This document shows positions 5,957 through 10,549 of a stretch of DNA of 11,737 nt, one piece after another. The translations under genes and the position numbers were made by a program. The DNA comes from an uncultured Kouleothrix sp. (lineage in GTDB: Bacteria; Chloroflexota; Chloroflexia; Chloroflexales; Roseiflexaceae), in NCBI GenBank assembly GCA_937858455.1, contig CALLYN010000975.1:1-11737 (forward strand). The letters are read 5' to 3'. Within the stretch, counting starts at the first letter, position 1, and each line of letters starts with the position of its first letter. The notes under the pieces are model-generated. The model was not told where the DNA came from. It made no database searches and was given only the letters and a program-made list of their open reading frames with translations.

Positions 5957-7201
5957 TCAGGCGCCAGCCGTGCGCAGCCGCGCGAGCCGCTCGCCGGCCG
6001 CATGCAGCGTTTCGAGCTTTTTGGCAAAGCAAAAGCGCGCCAGCGGCGTGGCCGTGGCCGGGTCGCTGTAGAATGCCGAAGTCGGGATCGCCGCCACGCC
6101 GATCTCGGTTGTCAGCCAGCGGCAGAACGCCCGGTCGTCGGTGTAGCCAAGCACGCCAATATCGGCGCTGATGAAATACGACCCCTCGGCCGGCAGCGTT
6201 GGCAGCCCGGCCGCCTCGAGGATGCTCCGCAGCAGCGCGCGCCGCTCGGCGTACTCGGCGCGCATCTGCCCGTAGTAGCCGTTCGCCGCAGACAGCTCGA
6301 TCGCCGCGCCGGCGGCCTCTTGAAACGGCGTGGCAGTGGCGAAAGTGACCCACTGGTGGGCCTGGCGCAGCGCGGTATTCAGCGCGGCCGGGCCTACCGC
6401 CCAGCCAATCTTCCACCCGGTGACACTAAAGGTCTTGCCGACGCTGTTGAGCGTCAGCGTGCGCTCCCACATGCCCGGCAGCGTCGCCAGCGGCACGTGC
6501 GCAGTGCCATCGTACACAAGCCGGTCGTACACCTCGTCGGTGATCGCCAGCACGTCGAACTCCTGGCACAGCCCGGCGATCAGCTCGAGCTCGGCGCGCG
6601 TGTATACCTTGCCCGTCGGGTTGTGCGGCGTGTTCAGCAGAATCAGCCGCGGGCGCTGCTCAAACGCCGCGCGCAGCTCGGCCGGGTCGAAGTGCCATGC
6701 CGACGAAGAGCGGATGACGGAAGCCGAAAGATTGCGTTGCTCGTTCGTCGTTAGCTCTTCGCCCTTCGTCGGCGGATAGAGCTGCACCACAATCGGCTGC
6801 GCGCCGGCCATGGTGATGTCGGGCACGTAGGCATCGTAGGCCGGCTCGAACACGATCGCCCGGTCCCCAGGATCGAGAAACGCCAGCGCCGCGTCGCACA
6901 GCGCCTCGGTGGCGCCACTGGTGACGCTCACCTCGCTCAGCCAGTCGATCTCGCGACCATGCTCGCGGCGCCACTGCTCGGCCACCGCCCGCCGCAGCCG
7001 TGGCGTGCCGGCCATGGGCGCGTACTGGTTCAGATCGGCGGCGATCGCGTCGGCGGCAGCCTGCTTCACGAACGCGGGGCCGGCGAAATCGGGAAAGCCC
7101 TGGCCAAGGTTCACCGCGCTGTGCTGCAGCGCCAGCGCGCTCATCTCGGTGAAGATCGTCGTGCCGAAGCCGGCGACGCGCCGGGCCGGGCGGTCAGTCA
7201 T
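5957..7201 (-). CDS. PLP-dependent aminotransferase, class I (KAT/YbdL-like), with in-frame insert
   Basis: 414 residues, fold-type I aminotransferase of the kynurenine/glutamine-transaminase K/YbdL group; family members act on aromatic, methionine or glutamine side chains with 2-oxo acids. Motifs: NLGQGFPDF near the N-terminus, Tyr122 in EPAYDAY, LNTPHNPTGK (Asn194), ITDEVYDRLVYDG (Asp222), GMWERTLTLNSVGKTFSVTGWKIGW (PLP lysine Lys256) and RFCFAKK (Arg389). ATG 7201 is fixed by GAGGAG (7214-7209), seven bases upstream; a TTG five codons earlier lies across that site. About 25 residues (143-168) between the LYPP strand and WHFDP have no counterpart in typical bacterial members and are encoded by a palindromic element (6699-6773). 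All catalytic residues remain, so activity is plausible. Substrate is not determinable. Confidence 0.9.
   Translation of the reverse strand: MTDRPARRVAGFGTTIFTEMSALALQHSAVNLGQGFPDFAGPAFVKQAAADAIAADLNQYAPMAGTPRLRRAVAEQWRREHGREIDWLSEVSVTSGATEALCDAALAFLDPGDRAIVFEPAYDAYVPDITMAGAQPIVVQLYPPTKGEELTTNEQRNLSASVIRSSSAWHFDPAELRAAFEQRPRLILLNTPHNPTGKVYTRAELELIAGLCQEFDVLAITDEVYDRLVYDGTAHVPLATLPGMWERTLTLNSVGKTFSVTGWKIGWAVGPAALNTALRQAHQWVTFATATPFQEAAGAAIELSAANGYYGQMRAEYAERRALLRSILEAAGLPTLPAEGSYFISADIGVLGYTDDRAFCRWLTTEIGVAAIPTSAFYSDPATATPLARFCFAKKLETLHAAGERLARLRTAGA
6699..6773. repeat. 75-bp palindromic insert inside the aminotransferase gene
   Basis: GCCGACGAAG (6699-6708) and CTTCGTCGGC (6764-6773) are perfect 10-bp terminal inverted repeats. 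CGAAGAGC (6704-6711) is also exactly complementary to GCTCTTCG (6754-6761), so the right arm looks like a 12-bp palindrome arm with a 7-base duplication. The length is 75 bases, 25 codons, preserving the frame. GC content is about 60 percent, below the flanking coding sequence, and the middle is rich in TCGT units. The encoded peptide (TKGEELTTNEQRNLSASVIR) is polar and unlike the enzyme family. It resembles, in behaviour rather than sequence, the palindromic elements known inside Rickettsia genes. Confidence 0.7.
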
Positions 7202-7232
7202 TGGTTGGCTCCTCAAAGGGTAAGCAGAACGT

Positions 7233-10422: not shown

Positions 10423-10549
10423 TTATACCAACTCCGTTTGCTCACTTTCTTTTGTGATGCCCTGCCCGACTTCACCTGGCAGGGCATCACAAAAAGAAAT
10501 TCGGCAGCTTCGCCGCCCCCAAAGCCCCACCATACAGCAAGTGTTCAGC
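10423..10549 (+). repeat. dispersed repeat, copy B (127 bp, with long hairpin)
   Basis: This is the longer partner of 4653-4740. Its core is a hairpin: 10450-10466 pairs with 10478-10494 for 17 bp without a mismatch, then four more pairs (10446-10449 with 10496-10499) after a single bulged A, with an 11-base loop. The 38 bases missing from copy A (10474-10511) contain the whole right arm and are bounded by CTTC (10470-10473 and 10508-10511). Inverted repeats near the ends, TGCTCACTTTCT (10439-10450) and AGCAAGTGTTCA (10536-10547), match at about 9 of 12. The stem has T residues on its 5' side and A residues on its 3' side, so it is not a terminator. Confidence 0.7.

Follow-up and report, generated by a model that had tools for sequence, protein, structure and literature searches.

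A 75-bp segment within the PLP aminotransferase gene of the window (the whole stretch of 11,737 nucleotides analysed, which is part of contig C975 of a fragmented assembly, G000, of 5.14 Mb in 1,123 contigs and 71.5% complete) is a worn copy of a heptanucleotide-repeat hairpin, of a family that is common in the same genome. Very probably the insert consists of a decayed GACGAAN array, a spacer and a TTCGTCN array, at a site that has been repeatedly entered or rewritten with units of the same genome. The peptide that it adds to a loop of the enzyme is most likely tolerated baggage, with no enzyme function implied. Among the protein matches listed, named close relatives of the window proteins belong to the Roseiflexaceae. 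The features of the gene and its insert are as follows:

5957..7216, minus strand: ORF of a PLP aminotransferase of the kynurenine/methionine aminotransferase type (Pfam PF00155, 8e-55)
6699..6773, minus strand: decayed heptad-repeat palindrome of 75 bp, with 13 of 14 outer positions complementary as read from the sequence
6736..6770, minus strand: first arm, GACGAAG GGCGAAG AGCTAAC GACGAAC GAGCAAC, five GACGAAN-like heptads
6729..6735, minus strand: spacer GCAATCT, between the arms
6701..6728, minus strand: second arm, TTCGGCT TCCGTCA TCCGCTC TTCGTCG, four TTCGTCN-like heptads

The Pfam match bears out the original prediction that the segment lies inside a PLP aminotransferase. The ORF comprises 419 codons from a TTG, or 414 from an internal ATG as in P0001, and its nearest solved structures are kynurenine-oxoglutarate transaminases and Escherichia coli YbdL. 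An exposed loop had been anticipated at the insert; in the AlphaFold model of P0001, residues 148-166 form a low-confidence stretch (pLDDT below 50), flanked by a strand at 135-140 and a helix at 173-181, which is consistent with a disordered loop. Elsewhere in the window, a strong terminator-like hairpin with 17-bp arms (10450-10495) stands approximately 100 bp after an ORF that we take to be IMP dehydrogenase-like.

The perfect 10-bp inverted arms on which the original prediction was built are present (6699-6708 and 6764-6773), but they do not constitute a signal by themselves: the window holds 27 exact 10-bp inverted pairs at nine places (gap 3-80, nested pairs included), dinucleotide-shuffled windows hold 3.47 on average, with one or more pairs present in 92 of the 100 shuffles, and the arms of the insert are not significant against shuffles. 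Because the arms alone are within chance, a heptad test was used instead. At an offset of seven, 33 of 68 positions of the insert match, a value equalled by none of 500 shuffles; offsets of 3, 11 and 14 are mildly raised (shuffle fractions 0.004, 0.004 and 0.022). Scored as a palindrome of GGACGAA units the insert reaches 32, against a shuffled mean of 10.3 and with none of 500 shuffles reaching 32; other seventh bases give 28-34, and the less related units GGATGAA and GGACCAA give 18 and 20, both above all shuffles. The decisive signal in the insert is a period of seven, and the 10-bp terminal repeats are its outermost, best-preserved heptads. RNA folds of the two strands have z scores of -2.75 and -2.78, with 2 of 200 shuffles as good on each strand. 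The reported drop in GC content is real, the insert having 60.0% GC against 68.7% for the whole gene and only 0.6% of 75-mers from the gene minus the insert being as low. "Exactly 25 codons" is right as a length and wrong as a unit, since the palindrome opens on the last base of a proline codon and includes host codons, most of it being held in the 24 codons from Pro-Pro to Trp. At the protein level the window loop scores 6.4 as a heptad palindrome, the same as the shuffled mean (6.4); it fails this shuffle test because it is decayed, and its heptad identity is drawn from the DNA test and from kin such as P0003, whose loop is a clear GGACGAA case with the same length as the window loop and a residue-by-residue resemblance to it.

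The repeat extends far beyond this gene. Searched with up to two mismatches, TTCGTCCTTCGTCCTT has 147 overlapping matches in G000 and 134 in G007, a genome of the same genus, whereas the reversed control matches only 2 and 0 times; the unit is thus abundant in this genus, although these matches are unevenly spread and concentrated on few contigs. With at most one mismatch the matches number 40 in G000 and 62 in G007. A sample of G000 picked regardless of matches (105,893 bp) is free of heptad runs when the strict threshold is applied, and the heptad density of G000 is therefore modest. The period is clearest in a 395,516-bp contig of the related genome G059, in which 80 period-7 runs compare with 0-12 for periods of 4-6 and 8-13; the harmonic at period 14 gives 50 runs, and a Markov shuffle gives a single period-7 run. 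An exact inverted repeat of at least 10 bp lies within 60 bp at 40 of the 80 runs versus 23 of 240 control places, and among the other 40 runs some paired arms stand beyond 60 bp. Fifteen distinct sites from the 80 runs of this contig (C1) lie in long ORFs of high GC3. Different heptad units co-occur within single genomes. The sampled elements comprise 51 distinct arms in 56 rows, some of which overlap each other or are GC-rich chance repeats, and the two arms of each element mirror each other exactly. This mirroring extends to variable bases, as in a 30-bp arm with two kinds of heptad. A 9-mer is common to the spacers in 83 of 990 pairs, partly as residual heptads.

Statements about homologues of the aminotransferase cover the best 120 of 7,999 scored candidates, in 118 of which the loop between Pro-Pro and Trp was parsed automatically (P0051 and P0063 were read separately). 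The loop has at least 13 residues in 93 of these 120 and at most 10 in the other 27, and its length peaks at 24-28 residues (55 of the 118 parsed). Thus the claim that relatives have no insertion stands for the Roseiflexus orthologues, which have six residues between PP and W, and fails for the nearest relatives, most of which have these longer loops, of differing sequence. The nearest kin with short loops, P0022 and P0024 (six residues; 83% and 82% identical), differ from the window gene by a net 18 codons (54 bp), and no allele differing by a clean 75 bp was found among the examined homologues. At the DNA level, in an alignment from which a motif filter left out L129, L225 and L131, the flanks meet the insert directly at the Pro-Pro and Trp codons; no target duplication is readable at the site because the short loops differ in sequence.

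To judge the long loops as peptides, the second-arm peptide was tied to the reverse complement of the first arm, in 110 loops of at least 12 residues (90 proteins and 20 loci). A heptad palindrome fits 85 of the 110 better than all 20 of their own shuffles, approximately 5 being expected by chance; when five locus pairs with identical loops that are apparently the same gene (L043/L121, L049/L125, L050/L130, L051/L128 and L052/L228) are counted once, two of the five being positive, the result is 83 of 105. The DNA palindromes of most close homologues are inferred from their peptides because these homologues were seen only as proteins. DNA readings of the site in the family that includes Oscillochloris show hairpins of AAGGATG and its complement in L052/L228, L129 and L131, and GGATGAA-type palindromes occupy the same codon site in the DNA of three Chloroflexales genomes, including Oscillochloris sp. 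ZM17-4; L122, L125 and L226 carry other heptads, L125 and L226 mainly as a single array whose partner arm is unclear. A pure AAGGATG array would have an in-frame TGA every 21 bases, and at this position L052 reads AGA, L129 GGA and L131 AGA, keeping the gene open.

The distribution of units was compared with a quick tree built without the loop, in which 53 of 144 inner branches are open. Its 147 rows are the 120 proteins and 27 hand-chosen loci, of which 121 were labelled and 26 uncounted. Unit labels were given only to loops above all shuffles and with a score of at least 8.2 (the window row took its label from the DNA evidence, and P0074 was assigned by eye), and classes were formed by hand from similar units. 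The 121 labelled rows require 44 class changes, against 70 with shuffled labels (minimum 65 in 200 shuffles). For the 81 filled rows, with two GGAYGAA classes merged, 32 changes are required against a shuffled 35.1 (minimum 31), and for stricter calls (79, 70, 50 and 22 rows) the fractions of shuffles that need no more changes than observed are 0.145, 0.07, 0.545 and 0.375. The presence of an insert tracks the tree; the identity of its unit hardly does. Unrelated loops are found in hand-picked sister pairs whose enzymes are 95.6% (P0057/P0073), 93.9% (P0054/P0076), 93.6% (P0008/P0017 and likewise P0067/P0080) and 90.7% (P0026/P0046) identical outside the loop, the unit differences in these 90-96% identical enzymes being mostly at the peptide level. 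The aminotransferase site seems to have been rewritten repeatedly while the enzyme remained unbroken.

Counts of units in whole genomes connect the site with the rest of the genome. With at most one mismatch, TTCATCC matches 155 times in G060, 161 in G062 and 129 in G063, all of which carry TTCATCC at the site; it matches 0 times in G058 and G061, which belong to the same genus and have no such loop, and 6 times in G000. TTCGTCC, conversely, matches 40 times in G000 and 0 times in G060. The GATTGCA family has 2025 matches in G066, whose loop holds GATTGCA, and 5 in G000. The tie between site unit and genome pool is loose: G028, G059, G065 and G066 have 23-102 TTCATCC matches yet other loops, and GATTGCA with two mismatches has 1720 matches in G060 and 804 in G063, above the matches of the site unit there. 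Six genomes of family f3, genus g29 (G068-G073) contain 95 to 703 TTCATCC matches each (at most one mismatch) and gave no aminotransferase match at the set threshold.

Relatives of the repeat do occur elsewhere in the genome and within other genes. The original prediction named an absence of further arm copies as refuting; this holds for the literal arms, of which the genome contains no second exact copy at that spacing, but not for the 7-base unit, which is repeated. The uvrA gene of G000 (contig C864; L169 13925-13965), for which a named close relative among the matches listed is from Kouleothrix sp. (80% over the searched region), carries an in-frame heptad segment after the DNA-binding domain, and UvrA relatives hold other heptads at the equivalent place. 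From 120 UvrA matches listed, the 105 with fewer than 1,100 residues entered an alignment, in which 92 have a segment of at least 14 residues; 33 of these 92 segments beat all shuffles as heptad palindromes (approximately 4 expected by chance), with 21 best-fitting units. A search for heptads in ORFs reduced 124 runs to 18 rows (17 sites), from which 10 ORFs were taken to Pfam. In-frame heptads lie inside or are flanked by Pfam domains in 7 of these 10 further ORFs, UvrA included, among them a guanylate cyclase/AAA protein, an ABC transporter, a GH2 glycosidase, an AMP-binding enzyme, a 2-oxoacid dehydrogenase acyltransferase and a CO-dehydrogenase-like flavoprotein; four further ORFs of the heptad list gave no Pfam domain match.

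Heptameric simple sequence repeats of other bacteria go by the name STRRs. The insert and the G059 contig share with them a seven-base tandem unit that is enriched over other unit lengths, and published heptameric SSRs likewise have many copies per genome, as described for Xanthomonas (GGGAATC), Nostoc (GGGGA(T/C)T) and Calothrix (heptanucleotides). Convergent (inverted) heptamer pairs number 70 and 75 in two Xanthomonas genomes (PMC4692102). As described there, published heptameric SSRs are over-represented between genes, form few inverted pairs in Nostoc and have one unit type per genome, whereas the elements described here have many units per genome, insert into coding sequence and turn over at one orthologous codon site. 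The TAACTGA repeats of Beggiatoaceae and cyanobacteria also form heptamer arrays, of which 10 sets are inside ORFs, and the passages describing them consider the resulting seven-residue peptide (PMC4679880); in the same passages, unlike here, they lie for the most part between genes, as direct repeats close to start codons, with one inverted pair in 170 sets (PMC4679880).

The original prediction likened the segment to the palindromic elements of Rickettsia. The parallel holds in that a palindrome lies in frame in the gene of a conserved enzyme, at a predicted disordered loop; published sections on RPEs and WPEs describe palindromic repeats in frame in conserved genes and at exposed parts of proteins, with RPE-4-like elements and WPEs that share one region of the biotin ligase gene, a possible hot spot (PMC3767692, PMC10969869). 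It breaks down over a fixed sequence with conserved terminal repeats. RPEs are characterized in those sections as families of approximately 100-150 bp with a conserved peptide, and their insert is reported at one locus across orthologues (PMC3767692); what the heptad elements have in common is a mirrored 7-base build and not a sequence, the exact arms of the insert are unique, arms and spacers differ between elements, dispersed copies with one sequence and one peptide were not found, and orthologues hold unrelated units. The comparison is an analogy, not membership. A fixed-sequence element of the Rickettsia type, or a non-autonomous MITE with terminal inverted repeats, arriving in a single 75-bp insertion, is accordingly improbable, even though the segment is palindromic, in frame and in a loop predicted to be disordered, and other copies of the repeat are found within genes: the arms have no second copy at their spacing, terminal inverted repeats are not conserved among copies as in a MITE, sister loci hold different units at the same site, the sampled elements rarely have an arm in common, yet each mirrors its own arms, and the nearest short loops differ from the window gene by 54 bp instead of 75. 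Exact-arm and DNA searches made for such an element gave partial, diverged matches only, and transposition of whole elements is disfavoured by arms and spacers that are distinct between elements. Small dispersed hairpins are also a feature of REPs and REPINs (PMC3733652, PMC3116915), and REP elements mobilised by a REP-associated tyrosine (Y1) transposase could be imagined here, since 52 of the order's 82 genomes have a Y1 match, heptad-rich G059, G062, G063 and G066 among them. Mobilisation by Y1 is nevertheless extremely improbable, given that no PF01797 match (E 0.001) was found in heptad-rich G060 (98% complete), G070 and G072 (both 100%), or in G000 and G007, which are less complete; Y1 presence does not track heptad abundance, and the transposase was rejected as a general driver. 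To our knowledge, REPs do not contain heptad arrays.

A stronger competitor is an ordinary microsatellite, in which 7-base slippage, without any dedicated machinery, makes and erases arrays in permissive loops and palindromes arise by chance template switching. The over-representation of heptameric repeats in many bacteria, as the relevant sections report it (PMC4692102, PMC4679880), and the half of the G059 runs that have no exact 10-bp inverted repeat within 60 bp (some pairs being further apart) speak for this explanation, which has an appreciable chance of being correct although we do not favour it: slippage alone yields no mirrored arms, the excess of inverted repeats at the remaining runs over the control places calls for more, and the recurrence of the site units throughout each genome is hard to explain. 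That the loop is a conserved functional extension, with its peptide under selection, would agree with the clustering of loop lengths at 24-28 residues; we regard it as very improbable because sister enzymes have loop peptides of unrelated sequence, 27 of the best-listed 120 homologues have at most 10 residues there and the loop is predicted to be disordered. An artefact of assembling or binning metagenome repeats might be suspected in a genome as fragmented as G000, and with an orthologue from the same genus whose contig stops a few codons short of the site, but it is hardly credible, as the same structure is present in Oscillochloris sp. ZM17-4, whose record title has no MAG label, and UvrA heptad segments come from contigs of more than 100 kb (P0121, P0122). 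The contig in question, C1935 of G007, ends a few codons ahead of the insert site, and another heptad-like palindrome was seen by eye upstream of the orthologue (L032 1405-1475), with CTACGCA/TTACGCA units and TAGTGCG partners.

Under the preferred explanation, repeated entry or rewriting of the site with units of the same genome, heptad hairpins of several units per genome are scattered through genomes of the Chloroflexales and would enter the PP-W loop repeatedly or be rewritten in place, the units at the site coming from the stock of that genome, so that the genome pool seeds the site. Arrays may lengthen by 7-base slippage, and one arm may be copied from the other by hairpin-templated (template-switch) synthesis, which we propose because the arms mirror each other even at variable bases. 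Copies in genes would persist only in flexible loops that can accommodate them and at net lengths that preserve the frame, and a Y1 transposase would not be needed. Read in any of the three frames, a tandem heptad yields a single seven-residue cycle (GRRTKDE for GGACGAA, FVLRPSS for its complement); because 7 = 1 mod 3, a stop-free heptad array is open with the same peptide in every frame, and this frame-independent peptide makes heptad elements unusually compatible with coding DNA. A further suggestion, that an active process writes mirrored heptad arrays and overwrites old ones from a genome-wide pool, with coding loops as landing pads where one in-frame hairpin is exchanged for an unrelated one between close relatives, so that housekeeping enzymes acquire frame-independent seven-residue repeats, is tentative, and we lean against it.

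Coding palindromes, as in Rickettsia and Wolbachia, and heptamer repeats, which are known mainly as intergenic, are here combined in hairpins of 7-base units that lie in frame in an aminotransferase, UvrA and other enzymes. The arithmetic of 7 = 1 mod 3 with stop-free units is a simple reason why heptads can enter genes, and the unit differences at one codon site offer a natural test system for the spread of small repeats. Loops in such metagenome proteins may, as a warning, be recent repeat DNA and not conserved sequence. We found no literature report of in-frame unit turnover of this sort; among the matches listed, titles and the beginnings of abstracts, a scope mostly outside subscription papers, include none on heptad palindromes in Chloroflexota genes, and the Herpetosiphon genome paper (PMC3368417) reports no such repeat in its passages containing "repeat", "palindrom" or "tandem".

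Other repeats of similar build were encountered. The reversed control patterns match often in G008, G015, G019, G023 and G066 (51 + 46 matches in G008 and 47 + 146 in G066), and these five genomes probably contain further heptad families. Period-8 runs number 16 in 110 kb of G007 contigs (L204-L223) that had been chosen for heptads, and the UvrA homologues P0131 and P0235 contain an eight-residue peptide period, ETRRQGDK, which suggests that octanucleotide relatives of the heptad elements exist.
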